From Hahella sp. HN01 (lineage in GTDB: Bacteria > Pseudomonadota > Gammaproteobacteria > Pseudomonadales > Oleiphilaceae), in NCBI RefSeq assembly GCF_018986435.1, contig NZ_JAHMIN010000006.1, positions 1 to 61,436 on the forward strand: 61,436 nt of DNA, written 5' to 3'. Positions 17,713 to 31,491 of this stretch are shown here, one piece after another (positions within the stretch are counted from its first letter, which is position 1; every line of letters begins with the position of its first letter). A model generated the notes under the pieces. That model made no database searches and was not told the origin of the DNA. It was given only the letters and a program-made list of their open reading frames with translations. The translations under genes were made by a program, and so were the position numbers.

Positions 17713-19419
17713 ATGCACCCACTTACCGGTAGCAGGCTGCTTATTGTTGATGACGAGCAGCGCAACACCAAACTGCTTACGGATATCTTTCGGGCGCAGG
17801 GATTTGACGCCTTTCCCCTCAATGACGCCAACGAAGTGATTGGCGCCGTCGCCAGCTACGAACCGGATTTGATTATCCTGGACGTTATGATGCCAGGTAA
17901 GACCGGCTTTGAGCTGACCCGCGAAATCAAGGCCCAGGAACACTGGAAACACATACCCATTATCCTTCTCACAGCACTGGCCGATCGCGATTCCTGCGTG
18001 TCGGGACTGGAGTGCGGCGCGGAGGATTACGTCAGCAAGCCGTTTAACCGGCGCGAACTGCTGGCGCGGGTGAACAACCTGCTCAAGCTTAAGAAGCTGC
18101 ACGATTTTCAACATCAGAATCTGCGTCTGCTGGAGGAATACGATTCCGTCACCGGCCTGCCGAAGAAAGATATTTTGATGGAGTTGATCGACTCGCTCAT
18201 CAAGCAGAAAAACAACGTCAATGTCTGCGTGTGCGTCTGCGAAGTGGATATGGATCAGACCCTGATCGGCCTGCTCAGCAGTCATGACCGCGACCAGTCC
18301 GAACGTCAGGTCAGTCGCGCCGTGGTGGAGCGTATGTCGTCCATTTTCCCGCCGGGCATGCTGCTGGGCTGTCTCGGCTCCGGCAAATTTGGCGTGGTGC
18401 TTGAAGCGGATGAGGAGGAAGGCGCGGCGCATTTGCGTCAACTGCAGCAGAAATTGAGCCTGCCCATCCTGGTGGAAGGGCAGGAATTCTTACTCAAATT
18501 CTCTGTCGGATACGCGCCGCCGCCGCATCCCCGCGTGGAGTGGATCGTGCTGTTTAATCATGCGGAAATCGCAGCCCTGGAAGCCAGGAAAGAAGGCGGC
18601 AATCTGGTGAAACGTTTTGCGCCGGAAATGGACGTGGAGAACCACGAACGCTGGTGGATGTCGCGGGCGCTGTTTCAGGCGGTGCGCGAACAACAGTTCG
18701 AGGTTTATTACCAGCCCCAGGTGGATATTCTGCAGGAGTCCCTGGTGGGTTTTGAGGCGTTGTTGCGCTGGAAAACCCCGGAGAAAGGCCATATCAGCCC
18801 GGCGCGCTTTATCCCGCTGGCGGAGGAAAACGGACAGATCTACGACATCAGTCTGTGGATGATGGAGCAGGTGTGCCAGCAGATTGCGCTCTGGAAACGG
18901 GCCGGCAAGCGCCTGCGCATGGCGATCAATATCTCGCCGGTGCAACTGCACCGTGATGAGTTCACCCAGGACTTTGTCGACCTTTTCACCCGCTATCATC
19001 TGTCCCCCAATGACTTCGAACTGGAGCTGACGGAAACCAGCCTGATGGACCCGAAAGGCGGCGGACAGTTGCGCGAGTTGTGGCGCCAGGGTTTCGATAT
19101 CGCCATTGACGATTTCGGCACCGGCTACAGCAATCTGGAGTATCTGCGCAAATATCCCTTTAACCGTTTGAAGATTGACCGTTCGTTCATCAGCAATATT
19201 TGCGACTCCGGCGATGACTTCGCCATCGTCAAGGCCATATTGGCCATTGCTCAGCATATGGGCTTCAAGGTTATCGCCGAAGGCATTGAAACCGCGGATC
19301 AACTAGCGCGTTTACGCAGCCTCGGCTGCCATGAGGCGCAGGGATATTTATTCAGCAAGCCGGCGCCCGCCGCCAACGCCACGGCCATGCTGTTCAATGG
19401 ACTTAAGGCGCCGGCTTAG
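17713..19419 (+). CDS. response regulator with degenerate GGDEF and intact EAL domain
   Basis: This 568-residue regulator should hydrolyse c-di-GMP when its receiver is phosphorylated. REC spans about 8-125 with D57 (LIILDVMMPGKTG). A GGDEF-like domain (about 145-290) has SGKFG at 223-227 instead of GGDEF, so it is probably inactive as a cyclase. The EAL domain (about 315-560) keeps E348-A-L (GFEALLRW), NISPVQL, ELTETSLM, DDFGTGYS, KIDRSF, AEGIET and QGYLFSKP, so phosphodiesterase activity is expected. It precedes CheY, STAS and CheA on the same strand. That position makes it a likely output of the CheA pathway. Confidence 0.94.
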   Translation: MHPLTGSRLLIVDDEQRNTKLLTDIFRAQGFDAFPLNDANEVIGAVASYEPDLIILDVMMPGKTGFELTREIKAQEHWKHIPIILLTALADRDSCVSGLECGAEDYVSKPFNRRELLARVNNLLKLKKLHDFQHQNLRLLEEYDSVTGLPKKDILMELIDSLIKQKNNVNVCVCVCEVDMDQTLIGLLSSHDRDQSERQVSRAVVERMSSIFPPGMLLGCLGSGKFGVVLEADEEEGAAHLRQLQQKLSLPILVEGQEFLLKFSVGYAPPPHPRVEWIVLFNHAEIAALEARKEGGNLVKRFAPEMDVENHERWWMSRALFQAVREQQFEVYYQPQVDILQESLVGFEALLRWKTPEKGHISPARFIPLAEENGQIYDISLWMMEQVCQQIALWKRAGKRLRMAINISPVQLHRDEFTQDFVDLFTRYHLSPNDFELELTETSLMDPKGGGQLRELWRQGFDIAIDDFGTGYSNLEYLRKYPFNRLKIDRSFISNICDSGDDFAIVKAILAIAQHMGFKVIAEGIETADQLARLRSLGCHEAQGYLFSKPAPAANATAMLFNGLKAPA

Positions 19420-19622: not shown

Positions 19623-19991
19623 ATGGCGAAGACCATTCTGATCATTGACGATTCCATCTCTCTGCGGCAAATGGTGGACATTACGCTCAAGTCCGCAGGC
19701 TACAACGTAATACAGGCGGAAAACGGCCAGGACGCGCTGGGAAAGCTGCCTGACGCCAAGCCCAGCTTGATTGTCTGCGACGTGAACATGCCGGTCATGG
19801 ACGGCATCTCCTTCGTCAAGGAGCTTAAAAGCCTGCCTGAATACAAATTCACTCCGGTCATCATGCTGACGACGGAAAGCACCGAAGATAAACGTATGGA
19901 AGGTCAGATGGCGGGCGCCAAGGCGTGGATGGTGAAACCGTTCCGTCCGGAAGCCATGCTTAAAGCCGTCCAGAAACTGATACTGCCCTGA
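19623..19991 (+). CDS. CheY-like single-domain response regulator
   Basis: This 122-residue receiver domain has the acidic pocket IIDD (8-10), phospho-acceptor D53 (VCDVNMPVMDG), the switch Thr in LTTES and the conserved Lys in MVKPFRPE. There is no output domain. It begins the che gene run (CheY, STAS, CheA, MCP, CheW, CheR, CheD, CheB), so it is the natural CheA target. Whether it contacts a flagellar motor or another output cannot be read, since no flagellar gene is nearby. Confidence 0.94.
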   Translation: MAKTILIIDDSISLRQMVDITLKSAGYNVIQAENGQDALGKLPDAKPSLIVCDVNMPVMDGISFVKELKSLPEYKFTPVIMLTTESTEDKRMEGQMAGAKAWMVKPFRPEAMLKAVQKLILP

Positions 19992-20023: not shown

Positions 20024-20290
20024 ATGAGCATAGACTCCCAACACGACCCCGAGCAGAACCGGCTGACCCTGAGCGGTGAGCTGACGATCTACTGTGCGGC
20101 GGAAGCCAAAGCGCCCCTGCTTGAGCATAAAGATATCGACATCGATCTTAGCCAACTGACGGAACTGGACGGGGCGGGCCTGCAACTGTTGATCCTGGCC
20201 AAACGGGATCGGCGCGCGCGGCTGGTGAACGCCAGTGAGGCGGTCGACAAAGTGTTCACGCTGACCGGGCTCGCCGACATGTTGGAGTAG
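20024..20290 (+). CDS. STAS-domain protein
   Basis: This 88-residue STAS domain (anti-sigma-factor-antagonist fold) is encoded between CheY and CheA. The usual phosphorylated Ser/Thr after the conserved Asp is replaced: the motif reads ELDGAGLQLL, with Gly50 at the site. It is therefore unlikely to be switched by the standard Ser kinase and may act as a scaffold. STAS proteins of this kind occur in other alternative chemosensory operons. The ATG follows AGGGAGG. Confidence 0.88.
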   Translation: MSIDSQHDPEQNRLTLSGELTIYCAAEAKAPLLEHKDIDIDLSQLTELDGAGLQLLILAKRDRRARLVNASEAVDKVFTLTGLADMLE

Positions 20291-20593: not shown

Positions 20594-22726
20594 ATGAGCC
20601 TGGATTTCAGCGGCGCCTTAAAGGCCTTCGCCCAGGAAAGCAAAGAACTGCTGGCGGAAATGGAGCAGTCGCTGCTGACCCTGGAGGAGGAGGGCGCCAA
20701 AAAGGAACTGGTGGATGCGGTGTTTCGCGCCGCCCACACCATCAAGGGGTCCGGTGGGTTGTTTGGGCTGGACCATGTCGTCGCTTTTACACACGATGTG
20801 GAAGGCGTGCTGGACGCTGTTCGCGATGGTCGCTTGGACATTGACGGCGATCTGATCAGCCTGTTGTTGAGTTGCGGCGATCAAATCGGGCGGCTGGTGG
20901 AAAGCTCCCTGGCTGGGGAAGTGGAAGGCGAGCTGCTACGTAAAGGCGCTGCGCTACAGGCGCAACTGCAACGCTATCTGCCCGGCTCCGCCAGCGCCGT
21001 CGCCACGCCGGAAGCCGACGTCGGCGAGACGCCACAAGGCGCGCGCGGCTGGCATATTTCTCTACGCTGTGGTCGCGACTTGCTGCGCGACGGTATGGAC
21101 CCCCTCAGCATCCTGCATTACATCTCCACCCTCGGCGAACTGGTCCGGGTCACTACCTTCTGCGGGCATATGCCGGCGGCGGAGGAAATGGACCCGGAAT
21201 CCTGTTATCTCGCCTTTGAAATGGACCTGATTACCGAACAGGCCAAAGAAGAAATTGAGGACGCGTTTGAGTTCGTGAGCGCCAGCAGCGAGGTGCGCAT
21301 TACTCCGGTGGGCGATCCTGACTCCTGGGACGAAGCCATTGAGGCGACCCCGGAGGGAGAACATCGTCTTGGCGAGATTTTGCTGGATAGCGGCGCCGTC
21401 ACCCGCAATGAACTGGAGCAGGCCTTGAAACAACAGGAGAGCGTGCCGGAGAGGCCCAAGCTGGGTGAAATACTGGTCGCTCGCAACGCCGTGCAGGAAA
21501 AAACCGTCAATACAGCGCTGGAAAAGCAGGCCGGCGTCGTCAAAAAACAGCGTCAGGACAGTTTCCTTAAAGTCGATGCGCAGAAGCTCGATCACCTCAT
21601 CAATCTGATCGGCGAACTGATGATCGCCAACGCGGAAGTCCGGGTGAAAGCGGAGCACATTCGAGAATCCCATTTGGATGAGTCCATCGCCAACTCCACC
21701 CGCTTTATCGAGGCCGTGCGCGACTGCGCGCTCAGTCTGCGAATGGTGCAGATCGGCGATACCTTTAACCGCTTCCAACGGGTGGTGCGTGATCTGGCTC
21801 GCGATCTGGGCAAAGATATCCGGCTCGTCGTCAGCGGCGGCGATACTGACCTCGATAAAACCCTGGTGGAGCGTATCAGCGAACCCTTGACTCATTTGGT
21901 GCGCAACGCCATCGACCATGGCATTGAATCGGACACGCTGCGGCGGGAACGAGGCAAGGCGGCAACCGGCGTGATCCGGCTGAACGCCTTTCATGAGCGC
22001 GGCAGCATCGTCATTGAAGTCAGCGATGACGGCGGCGGCATGAACCCAGAGAAAATCGTCGCCAAGGGGATTGAAAAGCAACTGATTCGCAGCGCGGAAG
22101 GGATGAGCGACGGCGAGATCTTCAAGCTTATTTTCGAACCCGGTTTTTCTACGGCGGAGCAAGTGACCAATGTGTCCGGCCGGGGCGTTGGTATGGACGC
22201 GGTGAAGAAAACCCTGGAAGAACTGCGCGGCAGCGTGGAGGTGGAAAGTGAGCTGGGCAAAGGCTCCACCATTCGACTGCGACTGCCGCTGACTTTGGCC
22301 ATCATCAACGGTTTTCTGGTGGGCGTGGGGGACAGCAAGTACGTGGTGCCTCTGGAAATGGTGGATGAATGCGTCGAGCTGAACGGCGACGGCGGCGGCG
22401 ACTTTATGGGCCTGCGCGGGCTGGCGCTGCCGTTTTTGCGACTGCGGGATCTGTTCAGCATTGACGGCCGTCCCTCCGATCGGCAAAGCGTGGTGGTGGT
22501 GCAATACGCCGGCCGCCGGGCGGGGCTGGTGGTGGACCGTTTAATGGGCGAATTGCAAACCGTTATCAAGCCTCTGGGCGACATCTTTACGCCGCTGAAA
22601 TGGGTCAGTGGCTGCACGCTGCTGGGAAGCGGCGACGTAGGACTGATTCTGGATATCCCGGAACTGGTCACTCGGGCGGAAAACGCCCAAAACCAGTATG
22701 TGGGCAGGAAAATGGCGGCCGGTTGA
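20594..22726 (+). CDS. cheA: CheA chemosensory histidine kinase with an MshEN-like insert
   Basis: This 710-residue CheA is the central kinase of the cluster. HPt (1-130) carries H48 in AAHTIKGSGG. A P2-like domain follows (152-240, WHISLRCGRDLLRDGMDP). Residues 258-312 hold two 24-residue units, RLGEILLDSGAV...LKQQ and KLGEILVARNAV...LEKQ. They match the MshEN c-di-GMP-binding motif (RLGxxLVxxGxI, then LxxALxxQ). The first unit fits fully; the second has R to K, G to N and L to V. The dimer domain, HATPase_c (N438 in HLVRNAIDHG, DDGGGM 478-483, GRGVGMD 529-535) and a CheW-like domain (about 565-700) complete it. All catalytic residues are present. The insert is the unusual feature. Confidence 0.95.
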   Translation: MSLDFSGALKAFAQESKELLAEMEQSLLTLEEEGAKKELVDAVFRAAHTIKGSGGLFGLDHVVAFTHDVEGVLDAVRDGRLDIDGDLISLLLSCGDQIGRLVESSLAGEVEGELLRKGAALQAQLQRYLPGSASAVATPEADVGETPQGARGWHISLRCGRDLLRDGMDPLSILHYISTLGELVRVTTFCGHMPAAEEMDPESCYLAFEMDLITEQAKEEIEDAFEFVSASSEVRITPVGDPDSWDEAIEATPEGEHRLGEILLDSGAVTRNELEQALKQQESVPERPKLGEILVARNAVQEKTVNTALEKQAGVVKKQRQDSFLKVDAQKLDHLINLIGELMIANAEVRVKAEHIRESHLDESIANSTRFIEAVRDCALSLRMVQIGDTFNRFQRVVRDLARDLGKDIRLVVSGGDTDLDKTLVERISEPLTHLVRNAIDHGIESDTLRRERGKAATGVIRLNAFHERGSIVIEVSDDGGGMNPEKIVAKGIEKQLIRSAEGMSDGEIFKLIFEPGFSTAEQVTNVSGRGVGMDAVKKTLEELRGSVEVESELGKGSTIRLRLPLTLAIINGFLVGVGDSKYVVPLEMVDECVELNGDGGGDFMGLRGLALPFLRLRDLFSIDGRPSDRQSVVVVQYAGRRAGLVVDRLMGELQTVIKPLGDIFTPLKWVSGCTLLGSGDVGLILDIPELVTRAENAQNQYVGRKMAAG

Positions 22727-22817: not shown

Positions 22818-24485
22818 ATGGGTTGGTTTAATAATCTGAAAGTCTCCGTAAAGCTGATAGGCTCCTTTCTTTTGATGCTTGTACTGATGTCGGTGGTGGG
22901 TTACCTGGGTATCACCAACATGGGCAAAATCAACGAATCCGACACCAAGATGTATAAACGCGACACCTTGGGCATTTCCCACGTCAAGGAAGCCAACATC
23001 CAGCTCCTCAACCAAAGCCGCGCCCTGCGCAACCTGATGCTGGCGAGCACCATGGAGGAGCGTGAAGCCTTTATGCGCTCAGTGCAGGAGTTTGACTCCG
23101 CGATGCAAACCGAGCTGAGTGTCTCCAAAAGCATCGCTGAAACGGAAGAGGCGAAACGTCTGTATAAAGACCTGGATCGCGCCTATCAGGAATATATCCC
23201 GCTGCGGGACCGTCTGTTGAATATCGTCAGACAGGAAAGCCTGATGTCCAACCGCGATTCCGTCGAGTTCGCCATGACCACGCTGCGTCCAAAAGCGGAC
23301 GCGTTGGATAACATGATGACAGAGCTGGTGCAGGTGATTGAGCAGAATGCTGAGGCTACCTCCAAATCCAACGATGAGCTATACGCCACCAGCAAAACCG
23401 TGATGCTGGCGGTGATCGGCGTCGCCGCCATATTGGGTCTGATGCTGGGTTTTATTATCTCCCGCGCTATTTCCCGTCCGCTCGGACACGCGGCGGATGT
23501 GGCCTATCGTTTATCTGAAGGCGATCTGAACGTGAGCGTCAACGTCAACAGCCGGGATGAAACCGGGCAGGTGCTGGCGGCCATGTCGCAAATGGTGGAG
23601 AAATTCACAGATATCATCAGCGACGTGCGCAGCTCCGCGGACAATTTGTCCTCTGCCAGCGAGGAAGTCAGCTCCACGGCGCAGTCCCTGTCCCAAGCCG
23701 CCAGCGAACAGGCGGCCAGCGTTGAGGAAACAACCGCGTCCATGGAGGAGATGAACGCCAGCATTTCGCAAAACACCGAAAACGCCCAGGTCACCGAGGA
23801 TATCGCCACCAAGTCATCCCAGGAAGCGCAGGAAGGCGGACAGGCGGTGCAGGCCACCGTCACCGCCATGCGCGATATCGCCGGCAAGATTAAAATCATC
23901 GACGACATCGCCTATCAGACCAACTTGCTGGCCTTGAACGCCGCCATCGAAGCGGCGCGGGCGGGGGAACACGGCAAGGGCTTCGCCGTGGTGGCGGCGG
24001 AAGTGCGCAAGCTGGCGGAACGCAGCCAGACCGCCGCCCAGGAAATCAGCAACCTGGCCGACAACAGCGTGGATCGCGCAGAGCGGGCGGGCGCCTTGCT
24101 GGAAGAGTTGGTTCCCTCCATTGTGAAAACCGCCGGTCTGGTGCAGGAAATCGCCGCCGCCAGTTCCGAGCAGGCCAGCGGCGTGGCCCAGGTCAATACC
24201 GCCATGACGCAGGTCAGTCAGGTGACGCAAAGCAACGCCTCCTCCAGTGAAGAGCTGGCGGCGACGGCGGAAGAGCTGAGCAGTCAGGCCCAGCAACTGC
24301 AGCACATCATGGCGTTTTTTAAACTGGGCGACAGCAGTCCCAGCAGTCCCAGCAGCGCCGTGCGGGCGGTTGTTCCGCGAGAACCAGCGCCCAAGAAGAC
24401 CGCCAAGGTCAAACCCTTGCGGGTGGTCAACAAGCCGGCGGCGGAAGCGCCGGAGCCGGACGAAGCGCATTTCATTCGTTTTTAA
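22818..24485 (+). CDS. methyl-accepting chemotaxis protein
   Basis: This 555-residue receptor has a membrane helix at about 13-32 and a periplasmic four-helix bundle sensor (about 33-190, 4HB_MCP type). A second membrane helix (about 194-214), HAMP (about 215-268) and a long cytoplasmic hairpin complete it. The hairpin tip is invariant-like ([20 protein letters not shown]). Glutamine/glutamate methylation sites are visible in [16 protein letters not shown] and in the return helix. The C-terminus has a flexible Pro/Ala linker and ends HFIRF. That fits the aromatic-x-x-aromatic tether pentapeptide used to recruit CheR and CheB. The ligand is unknown. Confidence 0.95.
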
Positions 24486-24515: not shown

Positions 24516-25028
24516 ATGGCTCAGGCATTGGAAACAAGCGCCCAGCCCGCGGACAGCGAACAGTACCTCACTTTTATGCAAAGCGGGGACATGTACGCCA
24601 TTCCTCTGTTAGGGGTGAAGGAAATCATCGAATATGGCGGCATCACTCCGATTCCGACATTACCAAGTTTCATCCGTGGGGTGATCAATTTGCGTGGTCG
24701 GGTGGTGCCGGTGATCGACCTGGGCTGCCGCTTCGGCAAAACCGAGCGGGAAGTGACCCGGCGCACCTGCATCATCATCGTGGAGGTTGGCTCAGGAGAA
24801 GAGAGCCAGGACATGGGGGTGATCGTGGACAGCGTGAGCGCGGTCATTGATATTCCCATGTCCAATATTCAGCCGCCCCCGGCGTTCGGCGCCAAGATCC
24901 GGGTGGATTTCATTCAGGGCATGTGGAAATCCGATGATCGCTTTGTCATCGTCATGGACATTGACCGGGTGCTGTCCGTGGATGAAATTACCAACATGGC
25001 GGAGGCCTTGCAGGAGAGCGTGGCCTGA
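24516..25028 (+). CDS. cheW: CheW coupling protein
   Basis: This 170-residue CheW links the receptor to CheA. Recognisable parts are YLTFMQSGDMYAIPLLGVKEII, PIPTLPSFIRGVINLRGRVVPVIDLG and the C-terminal strand FVIVMDIDRVLS. It has a slightly extended N-terminus and C-terminal helix compared with minimal CheW. It follows the MCP by 30 bases, and its stop codon overlaps the cheR start by one base. Confidence 0.95.
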   Translation: MAQALETSAQPADSEQYLTFMQSGDMYAIPLLGVKEIIEYGGITPIPTLPSFIRGVINLRGRVVPVIDLGCRFGKTEREVTRRTCIIIVEVGSGEESQDMGVIVDSVSAVIDIPMSNIQPPPAFGAKIRVDFIQGMWKSDDRFVIVMDIDRVLSVDEITNMAEALQESVA

Positions 25029-25867
25029 TGGTCAAGATCGTCGCCAGTGAAGGCGCTGCGCCGAAGTCCGGTCTTTATCGCATCGGCGACAGAGAGTTCG
25101 CTATCGTTAAACGCTTTGTGCACGATGCGGCGGGCATCTTTCTGACCGACGCCAAGAAGAACCTGGTCACCGGTCGTCTCGCCAAACGCCTGCAAGCGCA
25201 TAACCTGCAAAGCTATGGCGACTATCTGAAGCTGATCGACGCTGATGCGGACGAACGCCAGATTGCGCTGAACCTGCTGACCACCAACGAAACCTATTTC
25301 TTTCGCGAGCCCCAGCACTTTGACTTCATGCAGCGGCACATTCTGCCCCAGCGCGCGCGAGGCCGGCCGTTTCGGGTTTGGAGCGCGGCCTGCTCCACGG
25401 GAGAAGAGCCCTATAGTATCGCCATGTTGCTGGATGACGCACTGGGACAGTCCAATTGGGAAATTCTGGCCACCGATATTTCCACTGACGTGCTTACTCA
25501 CGCCAGGCGCGGATGTTACTCCATGCAGCGGGCGCAGCATATGCCGCCGAATTACCTGAGGCGGTACTGCCTTAAGGGCGTGGGGCCGGAAGACGGCAAT
25601 CTGTTGGTGGACAAAAAATTGCGCGGAGTCGTGCAGTTCAAAAACCTTAACTTAAACGCCACGCTGCCCAATGTAGGGCTGTTCGACGTGATTTTTTTAC
25701 GCAATGTCATGATCTACTTTCAGGCGGACACCAAGCGTCAACTGATCGCCAAATTGATACAACACTTGCATAAAGGCGGTCACTTGTTCATCGGTCGATC
25801 AGAGAGTCTGAATGGCGTGACGGAGCAACTAGAGCAGATATGTCCCGCCGTGTATCGCAAACCGTAA
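25028..25867 (+). CDS. cheR: CheR chemoreceptor methyltransferase
   Basis: This 279-residue S-adenosylmethionine-dependent methyltransferase methylates receptor glutamates. It has the N-terminal helical domain (AIVKRFVHDAAGIFL, LLTTNETYFFREPQHF), the SAM-binding segment RVWSAACSTGEEPYSIAM, ILATDIS and the conserved FDVIFLRNVMIYF. The N-terminus has about 20 extra residues. It overlaps cheW by one base and the CheD-like gene by 28 bases, showing tight translational coupling. Confidence 0.95.
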   Translation: MVKIVASEGAAPKSGLYRIGDREFAIVKRFVHDAAGIFLTDAKKNLVTGRLAKRLQAHNLQSYGDYLKLIDADADERQIALNLLTTNETYFFREPQHFDFMQRHILPQRARGRPFRVWSAACSTGEEPYSIAMLLDDALGQSNWEILATDISTDVLTHARRGCYSMQRAQHMPPNYLRRYCLKGVGPEDGNLLVDKKLRGVVQFKNLNLNATLPNVGLFDVIFLRNVMIYFQADTKRQLIAKLIQHLHKGGHLFIGRSESLNGVTEQLEQICPAVYRKP

Positions 25868-26799
25868 TCACCAAGCCTGAGGAGCCCCTGGAGATATTTC
25901 TGGATGCGGGGGAGTTGTATCTGGCGGAGGCCGACACGCGTATTCGCAGCCTGCTCGGGGAGGGGGGTATCGTCACCCTGTGGCACCCGCACCTGAAGCT
26001 CGGGGGAATGTGCCACTTTAAAAAAGTGCGCATGGACGCCAGCGAGCCCACCGGCCGAACGCTGAACGCCGCCTATGCGGATGCGGCGCTGAGTCTGCTG
26101 CAATTGGAGATGGTGCGCGCTGGCGCGCCGCCTCGCCGCTTTGAGGCGAAATTGTTTGTCTTCGATGGACCGGATGCAGGCAAGACGGCGAAAGAGGCGG
26201 GCCAGCTGCTGCATGACTTTGGCTTCAAGCTGGCGATGGATCACAACGGCAGCGGCAATCTGGTGTTTGATATCTGGAACGGAGACGTATGGATTCAGAA
26301 AGACGCTCCCAGCATGATCGACGCCGGCAAAGCGCCGCAGGACATTCTGGAAGTCTATCTGGACCCGGGCGAATGGTATTTTTCCGACGCCGACACCCGC
26401 ATGAAGACGCTGCTGGGCTCCTGTGTGGCGGTGGTGCTGTGGCATCCACAAAAGCGCCTGGGCGGCATGTGTCATTACATGCTTCCGCAACGCAACGGCG
26501 GCGCGTCCAATCAGGGGCTGGATGGGCGTTATGCGGACGAAGCGATGCAATTACTGGTGGACGCCTTAAAGAAGGAACGTACGCGGCCGCAGGAGTACGA
26601 AGTGAAAATATTCGGAGGCAGCTCTATGCTGGAAGGGTCCTCAATCAACGTGAGTAAACGCAACATTGAAGCAGCGTATCGTCTGCTCAAACACCATGGA
26701 TTTCGGATAATGGGCGAAGACCTGGGCGGCCGGGCGCATCGCAATCTGGTGTTTGACGTCTGGAGCGGCGATGTGTGGCTAAGGAAGGGAAGCCGATGA
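25840..26799 (+). CDS. cheD: tandem CheD protein with one inactive half
   Basis: This 319-residue protein is two CheD domains in a row; normal CheD is about 160 residues. CheD deamidates receptor glutamines using Cys and His. The second domain (about 165-319) keeps T190, C195 (LLGSCVAV) and H212 (GGMCHYMLP). The first (about 15-155) aligns cleanly ([18 protein letters not shown]) but has Gly42 where the catalytic Cys should be, with Ser37 and His59 retained. The first half is therefore a non-catalytic paralogue, perhaps for receptor docking or regulation. It overlaps cheR by 28 bases and cheB by 4 bases. Confidence 0.92.
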
Positions 26800-27905
26800 A
26801 CACTAAGATCAAGGTCATGCTGGTGGATGACTCGGCGGTGGTCAGGCAGGTGCTGCAGCAAGTGCTGGAGCGGGATAAGAATATTGAAGTAATTGGCGCG
26901 GCGGCGGACCCCATTTTCGCGCAATCGAGGATGAGCAAGCAGTGGCCCGATGTCATTGTGCTGGATGTGGAAATGCCGCGCATGGACGGTATCACCTTCC
27001 TGAAGAAATTGATGGCGGAGCGGCCCACGCCGGTGGTGATGTGCTCCAGCCTGACCAGCAAGGGCGCGGAGACCAGCATGAAAGCGCTGGCCGCCGGTGC
27101 GGTGGCGGTGGTGGCGAAACCGACCGTGGGAGTGAAGGAGTATCTGGAGAGCGCCGCCGGCCAGTTGATCATGGAAATCAAAGCGGCGGCGAAAGCCAAT
27201 ATGCGCAATATGCCGACCGCAACGGCGGCGCCGGCGCAAGCCGTGACGACTCCCGCCAAATTCTCCGCGGACGCGGTGATTCCTCTACGCTCCAGCGGCT
27301 CGACGGTCTCCACCAACAAAATCGCCGCGCTGGGAACCTCCACCGGCGGCACCCAGGCGTTGGAATATGTGCTGACGCGGCTGCCCCGTAATTGTCCAGG
27401 CATTGTGATCGTGCAGCACATGCCTGAAAAGTTCACCGCGGCGTTCGCTGAGCGCTTGAACAGTATCTGTGAATTGGAAATCCTGGAGGCGGAAAGCGGC
27501 TACCAGGTGGCGCCGGGGCGCGCGCTGATCGCTCCTGGCGGAAAGCACATGCTGCTGCGGCGTAATGGCGCGCAGTATTTTGTGGAGATCATGTCCGGGC
27601 CGCCGGTGAATCGACATCGGCCATCCGTCGACGTCCTGTTTCGGTCGGTGGCCCAGGCGGCGGGCCGCAACGCGTTGGGAATCATCATGACCGGCATGGG
27701 GGACGACGGCGCAAAAGGGCTGTTGGAGTTACGCAATGCCGGCGCTTTGACCATTGGTCAAGATGAGCGCTCCTGCATCGTTTACGGCATGCCGAAAGAG
27801 GCGGCGAAAATAGGTGCGGTAGCCCGGGAAATCTCTTTGGATCGCATCCCTCAGTGCATTCTGGATATGGGAGCGTCGCTCACCGCCAGCGTCCAGCGGG
27901 GATGA
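26796..27905 (+). CDS. cheB: CheB methylesterase response regulator
   Basis: This 369-residue CheB removes receptor methyl groups when phosphorylated. It has a REC domain (1-125, acidic DDS, phospho-Asp in [13 protein letters not shown]), a linker, and a methylesterase domain with Ser in [11 protein letters not shown], His in IVQHMPEKF and Asp in [12 protein letters not shown] 26796 follows AGGAAGGGAAG and overlaps the cheD stop (ATGA), so it is preferred to a TTG-type start 21 bases upstream. It is the last gene of the plus-strand che operon. Confidence 0.95.
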
Positions 27906-27982: not shown

Positions 27983-29104
27983 TCACGCCCCCCGACAGTG
28001 CTCCATGCGATGGATAATGGCCTCTAATTGCTCATCCAGCCCGGTCACTTCTTCATAGGTTTTGAACGTGCGCTCCAACCCGTTGCGCACCACCTTGGTG
28101 AGAGTCTCTTCCTGACTTTCCAGCAACGCCAGACTATCGTAGGCGATCACCAGTTCATCCAGGGTTTGCTCCAGCACCTGAAACGCGGTTTTATGTTGGC
28201 GTTCGCGCACTTCGTTGATGTCTTTCAAGGCTTTACGGCTGTCCTGTAGCACGCCTTCTATCAACGCGATCAATGACTGGTTTTCAAGTCCTTGACGGCG
28301 GAACTCGGCGCATTCCAGCAACAGCAGTAAATTGTCGCGGGCGCGGCCTTTCTTCTCGTCATCGTCAGGCATTTTGGGCACCAGCAGGGAAAACGGCGGA
28401 ATGTTGACCAGTAAGCGCTTATTGAATTCCAGTAGCCGCTGCTCCTGATCTTTGACTTTGAGCAGCAGCTCGGACTCCAGCGGCGAGACAAAGCCTTTGC
28501 TGCTGTGGCTGACTTTGTCGTTCTCCAGATTGATCTGTACGGTGCCCTGCAGGTCGAATTCCTCCAGGGTCTCAATGATCAGTCCTGCCAGATCAGCCAG
28601 CGTGTCCACCCTCATGCTGCGGCGCAGGAACTCCAGAATCACCCCTTGTTCGCCCGCGACGGTGATGGCGGTCATCGCGGTGGACATGGCCGCTTGTTGC
28701 GCCTCCTGGCCCGCTTTGGCCTGCTGCATCTGCTGTATCGCCATGCGTACTTTCTTGCGCAGCACGTCCGGTTGCGCCGGTTTGATCAGATAATCCCGGC
28801 CGCCGGCGTCGTAACCCGCCAGTTTTTCCTCCACCGTATCGTGAGCGGAGACGAAGATGACCTCAATGTGCTGCGTGGCGGGATTCGCCTTCAGCCGTCG
28901 GCAACATTCATAGCCGTCCATTTCCGGCATGGTCACGTCCAGCAGCACCACATCCAGCTCTGGATCTTTTTCCGCCATCTGCAAAGCTTTGGCGGCGCTG
29001 GTGGCGGCTTGCACCGCATATTCGTCTTTCAGGTTCTCCAGCAGGAAATGCAGGTCGTTTGGAGAATCGTCGACGATCATCACATGGGGCTTTTCGTCGC
29101 TCAT
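27983..29104 (-). CDS. response regulator with an uncharacterised helical output region
   Basis: This 373-residue protein has an N-terminal receiver (about 6-125, phospho-Asp in VVLLDVTMPEMDG, KPAQPD loop). A Gln/Ala-rich linker and a largely helical C-terminal region of about 220 residues follow, with no recognised DNA-binding, GGDEF, EAL or HD-GYP motif. The region near 175-225 (ADLAGLIIETLEEFDLQGTVQINLENDK) resembles a small sensory fold, and the end is coiled coil. It overlaps the upstream hybrid kinase by 4 bases and is likely its phospho-acceptor. Confidence 0.85.
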   Translation of the reverse strand: MSDEKPHVMIVDDSPNDLHFLLENLKDEYAVQAATSAAKALQMAEKDPELDVVLLDVTMPEMDGYECCRRLKANPATQHIEVIFVSAHDTVEEKLAGYDAGGRDYLIKPAQPDVLRKKVRMAIQQMQQAKAGQEAQQAAMSTAMTAITVAGEQGVILEFLRRSMRVDTLADLAGLIIETLEEFDLQGTVQINLENDKVSHSSKGFVSPLESELLLKVKDQEQRLLEFNKRLLVNIPPFSLLVPKMPDDDEKKGRARDNLLLLLECAEFRRQGLENQSLIALIEGVLQDSRKALKDINEVRERQHKTAFQVLEQTLDELVIAYDSLALLESQEETLTKVVRNGLERTFKTYEEVTGLDEQLEAIIHRMEHCRGA

Positions 29105-31491
29105 TGTGGTTCACCCTGAGTTTGAATGAGTTGGGATAAGTGGGTTTGAGCCTGCTCGATATCGAACTGAAACAACGCTTCCTCCAGCTGCGACAGCGCT
29201 TGCACCTGCGGTGGATCGCTGACGGTGGCGCGGAGTTGGGCGAGGGATTTCTGCGCCTGCCCCAGATCGCTTTCCAGATAGTCTCTTAATTGCAGCAACT
29301 GCGGCAGCAATGGCCGCTGATCTTTGCTGAGCATCGATGGCGCAGGAGCGGCTTCGTTTTGTTCCAGGCGCGACAGACCGGACAATACTTCCTCCAGCGT
29401 TTGCAGCAACGGCGCCATCAGGTCGTGGGTCTGACTTTGATTGCCCGCGCGGGCGGCGCTTTCCACCGCGCCGGCGGCTTTGCCCAGCGCTTCCGCGCCA
29501 ATGGTCGCGCCGCTGCCTTTAAGGCCGTGGGTAATGATGGCGATTTCACCAAGCGCGTTCTGCTCCATCAGGGTTTGCAACTCCTTGGGAGCGTCTTCCC
29601 ACTTTTCGTAGAAGCCGCTGAGGATGCGCTGGAACAGGGGCCAACGTCCACCCAGGCGCTGCAAGGCTTCGGTGATGTTGAGACCGGGCAGGGAGGGAAT
29701 ATCGTGGCCGCCGGCTGGCGCGGTAATGATGCTTTCCCGCGTCGCCGGCGCGGGGGTTTTACTGCGCAGCCAGTGACCCAGCGTCTCGAACAGCTCTTCA
29801 GCCGCGAACGGTTTGACGATATGGCCGTTCATGCCGGCGTCACGACTCAGGTCGCGATCGCTTTGCTGCGCGTGAGCGGTCATCGCCAGAATGGGAATCT
29901 CCTGAAAACGCCCGCCCAGAGCGCGAATGGCGCGGGTGGCGTCGAGCCCGTTAAGCTCCGGCATCTGCACGTCCATCAGAATGAGATCGTAGTCTTTGCC
30001 CTGCACGGCGTGAACCGCGGACAGGCCGTTGTCGACCACATCCGGCTTGACGCCGACGGAGCTGAGCAGGTCGATGGCCACTTCCTGATTGACCACATTG
30101 TCCTCCGCCAACAGCACTTTGGAGCCGCCGAACCACCAGCTTTGCGCGTCGTCATCGTCGTCATGGTCATCCAGACAACAGGCGCGGCAGTTTTCGCCTA
30201 CATAATGGTTTTGCAGCAGGACGAACAAATCATGGGGACGAATAGGCGAGCGCAATTCGGAGTACAGGACGTCCTCGTTATTCAAATCCACCTGGGCGCC
30301 GAACACCCTTACTGCGATTGGGTTCTGGTCGCCGTGTTTGTGCCGTAGCCAGGTCAGGATTTCCCGCGGCGGCGTCTGTTGGTGAATCAACATCAGATCA
30401 AAGGGGCGGAAGGCGCTTTCCAGGGCTTTCAGGGCTTCTTCGGTGGAGCTGGAAGGGGCCAGTATATCCACGCCGAGTTCACGCAGGCCTCGCTTCAGGA
30501 AGGGCGCAATGGACTCCTCCGCCAACAACAGAATGGGCTTGTCCGCCCAGGGCGCCGGCGGCGGTTCCCGGGTCGATCCGTCAATAGACAGGGAGAGATA
30601 AGGCAGGGAGAAGTAAAAGTCGGCTCCAACACCGGGCTCGCTGCGCACTTGCAGACGACCGCCCATGGCCTCCACCAGACGGGAGCTGATGGACAGTCCC
30701 AGCCCGGTGCCGCCGTAGCGCCGGGTATGGGAATCGTCCGCCTGACTGAAGGGTTCGAAAATCTGTTGCTGCCGGTCTGCGGGAATGCCGACGCCGGTAT
30801 CCGCCACGCCGAACATGAGGCGGTCCTCCACCGGGTAGCAGTACAATGACACCTCTCCCTGTTTGGTGAACTTCACGGCGTTGGACAGCAGGTTGCAGAT
30901 GATCTGCTTGAGTCGGGTAGGGTCTCCCATGATCTGGTCCGGCAGATGGGCGGCCAGGGTCAGCGTCAAGGTGAGACCTTTATCGGACGCCTGGCTGCAC
31001 ACGACCGGCAGACAGCTGTCCAGCAGACGACCAAGCGAGAAGGGAATGCGCTCCAGGTTGACCTTGTCCGCCTCCAGCTTGGAAAAGTCCAACAGATCGT
31101 TGATCACCGTCAGCAGCAGTTTGCCGGAAGTGAGGGCGGTTTTGGCGCGGGCCTTTTGTTCCCGTGACAGATCGCCATGCATCATGGCCTGCAGCATGCC
31201 GATCACCCCATTTAGCGGTGTGCGGATCTCATGGCTCATGTTGGCGATAAACAGACTCTTTGCCTTGTTGGCGGCCATGGCCTCATCCCGCGCCTCTTCC
31301 AGCTTCTTGGTGCGGTCTTTGACCATGTCGCCAAGGGAGTGCACCATGCCTGCGGTTTTCTGCAGGGCGTCCTCCAGCAACAGATGACTCTCGTAGAGTT
31401 CAGTGGCTTTCAATTCCAACAGTTGCTCCGCCTGATGACGGGCGGCGCGCTCCCGGGCGAGAGCGCGTTCAAGTACGGCGATTTTGGTCAT
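29101..31491 (-). CDS. H-NOX-associated hybrid histidine kinase (HK-REC-HPt)
   Basis: This 796-residue soluble kinase has an N-terminal coiled coil (1-75), HisKA with H87 (MSHEIRTPLNG) and HATPase_c (N204, DTGVGIP, GTGLGLSI). A degenerate receiver-like segment (about 318-430) has HQQTP in place of an Asp site. A true receiver has D507 (LILMDVQMPELNG), and HPt has H655 (ITHGLKGSG). It has no sensor domain of its own. It overlaps the H-NOX gene by 4 bases, the classic arrangement where NO-bound H-NOX controls the kinase. Its receiver and HPt imply an internal relay ending on the next gene. Confidence 0.93.
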   Translation of the reverse strand: MTKIAVLERALARERAARHQAEQLLELKATELYESHLLLEDALQKTAGMVHSLGDMVKDRTKKLEEARDEAMAANKAKSLFIANMSHEIRTPLNGVIGMLQAMMHGDLSREQKARAKTALTSGKLLLTVINDLLDFSKLEADKVNLERIPFSLGRLLDSCLPVVCSQASDKGLTLTLTLAAHLPDQIMGDPTRLKQIICNLLSNAVKFTKQGEVSLYCYPVEDRLMFGVADTGVGIPADRQQQIFEPFSQADDSHTRRYGGTGLGLSISSRLVEAMGGRLQVRSEPGVGADFYFSLPYLSLSIDGSTREPPPAPWADKPILLLAEESIAPFLKRGLRELGVDILAPSSSTEEALKALESAFRPFDLMLIHQQTPPREILTWLRHKHGDQNPIAVRVFGAQVDLNNEDVLYSELRSPIRPHDLFVLLQNHYVGENCRACCLDDHDDDDDAQSWWFGGSKVLLAEDNVVNQEVAIDLLSSVGVKPDVVDNGLSAVHAVQGKDYDLILMDVQMPELNGLDATRAIRALGGRFQEIPILAMTAHAQQSDRDLSRDAGMNGHIVKPFAAEELFETLGHWLRSKTPAPATRESIITAPAGGHDIPSLPGLNITEALQRLGGRWPLFQRILSGFYEKWEDAPKELQTLMEQNALGEIAIITHGLKGSGATIGAEALGKAAGAVESAARAGNQSQTHDLMAPLLQTLEEVLSGLSRLEQNEAAPAPSMLSKDQRPLLPQLLQLRDYLESDLGQAQKSLAQLRATVSDPPQVQALSQLEEALFQFDIEQAQTHLSQLIQTQGEPQ

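Follow-up and report, generated by a model that had tools for sequence, protein, structure and literature searches.

Links between cyclic dimeric guanosine monophosphate (c-di-GMP) and chemotaxis are mostly attributed to the motors, to methylation of receptors or to phosphodiesterases that dock on CheA. In Pseudomonas aeruginosa, CheA is tied to c-di-GMP via the phosphodiesterase Pch, on which the kinase is described to act (PMC3861689); for the kinase considered here, the proposal is that CheA itself is the target of c-di-GMP. This kinase is encoded by cheA (20594..22726, plus strand, 710 residues) in a 61,436-nucleotide stretch of Hahella sp. HN01 (contig NZ_JAHMIN010000006.1, positions 1 to 61,436), hereafter called the window. 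It is made up of Hpt, P2-like, MshEN_N, P3 dimerization, HATPase_c and CheW domains. It is near certain from homology that residues about 253–315 are a true MshEN_N domain, and the best reading, which we favor with reasonable confidence, is that this chemosensory kinase receives c-di-GMP directly as a second input.

MshEN_N domains are known from the pilus ATPase MshE of Vibrio cholerae (structure 5htl), in which two 24-residue units make up a four-helix bundle. Wang et al. (2016, PMC5013675) gave the motif of one unit as RLGxx(L/V/I)(L/V/I)xxG(L/V/I)(L/V/I)xxxxLxxxLxxQ and placed the ligand contacts at positions 1, 2, 3, 17, 21 and 24 of both units. According to the same work, the backbone amide of position 3 of MshE contacts guanine and position 24 bonds ribose and phosphate; Gly10 is needed for the turn between helices and is not described in that context as a contact. 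In Thermus thermophilus PilF, Lys/Leu (domain GSPII-B, 6 nM) or Pro (domain GSPII-C) at position 1 are reported to be compatible with binding, the affinity of GSPII-C being similar to that of MshE (PMC11731258). XpsE of Xanthomonas campestris belongs to the same domain family but has altered motifs; it is reported to lack the Gly, Leu, Arg and Gln contacts and to have lost binding. The MshEN partners listed by Wang et al. include "chemotaxis protein kinase CheA". The CheA-MshEN fusion is thus already in print, as a single clause which refers to a supplementary table and figure and itself comes without CheA sequence, test or mechanism (PMC5013675). Among the open-literature matches listed, a scope outside of which lie most subscription papers and all preprints, there were no experiments of c-di-GMP on an MshEN-bearing CheA.

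In the window, unit 1 of the CheA insert (residues 258–281, 21365..21436), RLGEILLDSGAVTRNELEQALKQQ, is canonical and matches the published motif save for Ala at position 11. It is followed by the seven-residue spacer ESVPERP (21437..21457) and by unit 2 (residues 289–312, 21458..21529), KLGEILVARNAVQEKTVNTALEKQ, which departs from the motif at positions 1 (Lys), 10 (Asn) and 17 (Val) and also carries Ala at position 11. Both residues at position 1, R258 and K289, agree with the extended motif reported in PMC11731258, which admits Arg, Lys or Leu there. An earlier note on this DNA had placed the two units and the seven-residue gap exactly. It had also held that unit 1 fits every key position and that unit 2 carries three substitutions; the motif match and the three substitutions were recovered, but Ala11 is a departure in unit 1 and an additional one in unit 2. 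When Ala was permitted at position 11, the strict unit pattern occurred in none of 200,000 shuffles of the window CheA (expectation 3.7e-7 per protein), which rules out a chance match as the origin of the motif, and it was present once across the six frames of the whole window. With loosened patterns, 303 of the 200,000 shuffles gave a unit and none gave a tandem.

In order to place the insert among its homologs, relatives were collected by three routes: a search of 58 genomes with the whole CheA, a profile search (A1, 11 rows, residues 150–330) of 390 genomes from the order, and a scan of named genomes that gave 503 relatives, of which the best 80 were kept. Two alignments were drawn from these 80 loci, A3 (72 loci and the window CheA, hence 73 inserts) and A4 (62 loci), the remainder being omitted to limit near-copies and size. 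Both MshEN units are visible in the alignment of all 80 kept loci. When the A3 profile was compared with the PDB, 14 distinct sequences were obtained at E <= 1, and all 14 are PilF, PilB or MshE; the best match is PilF, over its GSPII-C domain. The predicted fold of the insert is a four-helix bundle that superposes on c-di-GMP-bound MshE (5htl) with a root-mean-square deviation of 1.2 Å over 58 residues, so that the structure comparison proposed in the earlier note came out in favor of MshEN.

Position counts over the 73 inserts were taken from a MAFFT-based alignment. Only four residues are invariant in A3 (73/73): Gly260, Gln281, Gly291 and Gln312, that is, positions 3 and 24 of each unit. 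Positions 2, 17 and 21 are aliphatic in both units, the sole exceptions being seven inserts with Ala at position 21 of unit 2, and Arg1 of unit 1 is kept in 59 of the 73. The mean entropy is 0.70 bits for the contact positions versus 1.64 bits for the remaining unit positions; when twelve positions were drawn at random 20,000 times, 55 of the draws reached the former value. Together, the shuffles, the PDB profile matches, the predicted fold and the conservation of Gly and Gln identify the insert as a genuine MshEN_N domain. Like MshE, it has two 24-residue units in a four-helix bundle with the same Gly and Gln contact positions; it differs by a spacer of seven residues instead of five, by the absence of Gly10 from unit 2, by the lack of an MshEN_C part at the same place and by its host, a kinase and not a pilus ATPase. 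PilF GSPII-C shares with it the seven-residue spacer and Val17 and Lys23-Gln24 of unit 2, but retains Gly10 in unit 2, has Pro at position 1 of that unit and belongs to a pilus ATPase. The spacer of the window CheA is short, like those of these two binding domains; it ranges from 5 to 23 residues across the 73 inserts.

The host protein has the parts of a CheA kinase, since the Hpt domain with its His and the dimerization, ATPase and CheW-like domains all exceed their Pfam cut-offs. The Hpt/P1 domain spans residues 9–93 (20618..20872; 2.2e-14), with His48 in AAHTIKGSGG. The P3 dimerization domain covers residues 323–401 (21560..21796; H-kinase_dim, 2.9e-9), the P4 ATPase domain residues 431–567 (21884..22294; HATPase_c, 1.9e-19), with N, G1 and G2 boxes present, and the P5 CheW-like domain residues 573–695 (22310..22678; CheW, 8.9e-22). 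The MshEN units follow the P2-like part and precede the dimerization domain, as the earlier note had said. The last helix of the bundle extends to about residue 322 (model H157-177), and the first P3 helix starts at 329. The bundle sits on the arm that carries the domains for phosphotransfer and CheY docking, and its last helix approaches P3, which would put a ligand in a good position to alter the geometry of the arm and hence phosphotransfer.

These observations suggest the following mechanism. The MshEN_N bundle, whose pair of 24-residue units is of a type that accommodates a single c-di-GMP, lies on the arm that joins the P2-like domain to the P3 helices. Binding of c-di-GMP would stiffen or reorient this arm and so alter the reach of the Hpt and P2-like domains to the ATPase domain and to CheY. 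In that case kinase output would be tuned not only through the receptors but also, independently of them, by the cellular level of c-di-GMP, and would more probably be lowered when this level is high. In this genus, a feedback loop could be completed by the predicted phosphodiesterase regulator that is encoded next to cheA. Considered separately, binding of c-di-GMP by the insert is likely, and control of the kinase by c-di-GMP is probable, if slightly less so.

CheAs of a second kind were met in a phylum-wide sample of 398 genomes, 56 of which gave matches at E <= 1e-25. Matches covered nearly the full model in 53 of those 56 genomes (56 places), and 20 of these places (L184–L203) were inspected. 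They form a compact group with two MshEN-like units, little or no spacer and, mostly, no unit 1 Gln. Equivalents of Gly260, Gly267, Gly291, Gly298 and Gln312 are present in 20 of 20, but that of Gln281 is found in just 8; another 2 carry His or Lys at this place, and 10 show a gap there, since unit 1 passes straight into unit 2. This rules out that every CheA found by the long model carries the full binding signature. Since the compact places are mostly without the first Gln, it is the long-spacer group, to which the window CheA belongs, that has the full signature; the figure of 53 in 398 genomes should therefore not be read as how often likely binders occur. The compact group is possibly a changed or dead receptor. 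In a tree of P3 to P5 (residues 322–700, insert left out, quick search), 43 insert-bearing CheAs fall on one side and 19 without the insert on the other, with weak support (58). Two of the insert-bearing rows, L015 and L016, are likewise of the compact kind; without them, the remaining 41 insert-bearing CheAs group with a support of 99. The insert-bearing rows include Pseudomonadota, Nitrospirota, Myxococcota and Actinomycetota.

Several caveats apply to this reading. The presence of the insert in all 80 kept loci is partly selection, because the ranking query contained the insert. Gly is found at position 10 of unit 1 (Gly267) and replaced in unit 2 (Asn298), where it is kept in only 22 of the 73 inserts. 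Position 1 of unit 2 is variable (Pro 26, Arg 13, Gln 13 and Leu 7 of 73), Gln281 is infrequent in the compact group, and Gln312, which persists there, may have another role in that group. In three of six congeners searched (G003, G004 and G006), the best match is a CheA without the insert and no orthologue was found among the best matches. Finally, a feedback loop that involves the EAL regulator would have to be a local one. The conservation check proposed in the earlier note for Arg, Gly, Leu and Gln thus came out well for Gly3 and Gln24 of both units and for Arg1 of unit 1, and not for Arg1 (13/73) and Gly10 (22/73) of unit 2.

The alternative that survives best is a relic receptor, in which the MshEN fold is kept and c-di-GMP binding is lost, as in XpsE, so that the bundle, placed between P2 and P3, would now act as a rigid spacer or a docking surface. 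It would account for a unit 2 without Gly10 in 51 of 73 inserts and without Arg1 in 60, as well as for the absence of the first Gln in 12 of the 20 compact relatives, and non-binders are reported within the family (XpsE and PilF GSPII-A). XpsE, however, is described as having lost its Gly, Leu, Arg and Gln contacts, whereas the window CheA keeps the Gly and Gln contacts, positions 3 and 24 are invariant in all 73 CheA inserts, and positions 2, 17 and 21 remain aliphatic apart from the seven Ala noted above. Moreover, those PilF domains in which position 1 is Lys/Leu or Pro are reported to bind more tightly than MshE or like it (PMC11731258). We therefore consider a relic unlikely and retain c-di-GMP binding as the preferred explanation.

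The following genes around cheA are all on the plus strand. Upstream lies a REC-GGDEF-EAL response regulator (17713..19419), a predicted phosphodiesterase with a degenerate GGDEF motif (GSGKF) and the EAL signature words EALLRW, NIS, ELTE, DDFGTG, LKID and AEGIE, which we take to be the catalytic words. It is followed by cheY (19623..19991; Response_reg) and by a gene for an 88-residue STAS-domain protein (20024..20290; STAS_2, 3.4e-11), located between cheY and cheA. Downstream of cheA are genes for a chemoreceptor (22818..24485; 4HB_MCP_1, HAMP, MCPsignal), CheW (24516..25028), CheR (25028..25867), CheD (25840..26799; 319 residues with two CheD stretches in one protein) and CheB (26775..27905), assigned with Pfam. 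Long CheD frames were likewise found in the three congeners examined. A homolog of the STAS gene stands immediately before cheA in 7 of 10 regions. On the minus strand after the chemotaxis (che) cluster (27983–31491) are encoded a 373-residue receiver protein and a hybrid kinase (HisKA, HATPase, REC, Hpt); the pair is present in two of three congener regions, and the third is too short on that side to tell.

The cheA orthologue is found in the congeners G001, G002 and G005 (94–96% identical), and the che cluster seems to have been gained or lost within the genus. Ten relative regions were examined for the REC-GGDEF-EAL gene. It adjoins the che cluster in 3 of 3 congeners; one of the other seven regions (L177) has an EAL frame, 34% identical and on the opposite strand. 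In a comparison of the window genes with 51 loci of more than 14 kb, best BLAST matches were obtained for CheY in 51, the chemoreceptor in 51, CheW in 49, CheR in 42, CheB in 41, CheD in 38 and the REC-GGDEF-EAL regulator in 5. This last count and the ten regions rule out the EAL regulator as part of the system beyond near relatives. The earlier note had proposed that, with an EAL phosphodiesterase regulator in the operon, c-di-GMP could feed back directly on the kinase; the adjacency stands for the window and the three orthologue-bearing congeners, but is infrequent elsewhere.

Two further explanations concern what the bundle recognizes. Its pocket might prefer another dinucleotide, cyclic GMP-AMP (cGAMP) or a relative, over c-di-GMP, since MshE is reported to bind cGAMP, although more weakly, and the flank before unit 1 is unlike that of MshE. 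Against this, both guanine-contacting Gly positions are conserved and the REC-GGDEF-EAL protein with its EAL signature words adjoins cheA in the genus, so that we regard such a preference as improbable. It is highly improbable that the bundle is a protein-docking adaptor for a partner such as the STAS protein or the EAL regulator, with any effect of c-di-GMP secondary, because the highest conservation within the units, the only part compared, falls on the ligand-contact positions of MshE.

The Pfam MshEN model (PF05157) matched none of the 73 inserts at E <= 0.1. In three of the eight PF05157 loci from the window genome and its relatives (L003, L146 and L148), the match starts directly after unit 2, and the unit pattern found nothing in the other five; from the start after unit 2, the model appears to cover the region that follows the binding site. 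The sole Pfam hint within the insert is DUF4388 (PF14332; E 0.022 for the whole protein, 19 bits versus a curated cut-off of 25). It weakly matches about one MshEN unit (profile positions 48–74) in 51 of the 73 inserts at E <= 0.1. As a name for the insert it was rejected, being below cut-off, spanning about one unit and leaving the tandem unexplained; from the sequence match, the DUF4388 family may contain an MshEN unit. In many genomes, other open frames, mostly of about 220–320 residues, match the insert part of the profile, and one of 480 residues is found in the window's own genome (G000:C91:101464-101649). To judge by these matches, such frames are possible further c-di-GMP receptors.

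Berry, Andrianova and Zhulin (2023, PMC10782961) surveyed CheA architectures over thousands of sequences and describe P2, receiver and CheC/CheX as auxiliary domains; c-di-GMP and MshE do not occur in the main text of that survey. With one clause found in print, no mention in the main text of the survey and the Pfam miss, an input common to many CheAs may have gone untested. The chances seem evenly balanced that the MshEN-bearing CheAs of Pseudomonadota, Nitrospirota, Myxococcota and Actinomycetota are a clade of direct c-di-GMP receptors that read the messenger within their P2-P3 arm and sum lifestyle and chemoreceptor signals, the response having been lost or altered in a compact sister group that mostly lacks the first Gln. 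Such a clade would have been unnoticed because the Pfam MshEN model appears to start after the binding subdomain. The prediction names residues and ligand. If it is true, a receptor domain within CheA would be the most direct route of c-di-GMP into chemotaxis, and could account for the retuning of chemosensory output in cells that turn sessile.
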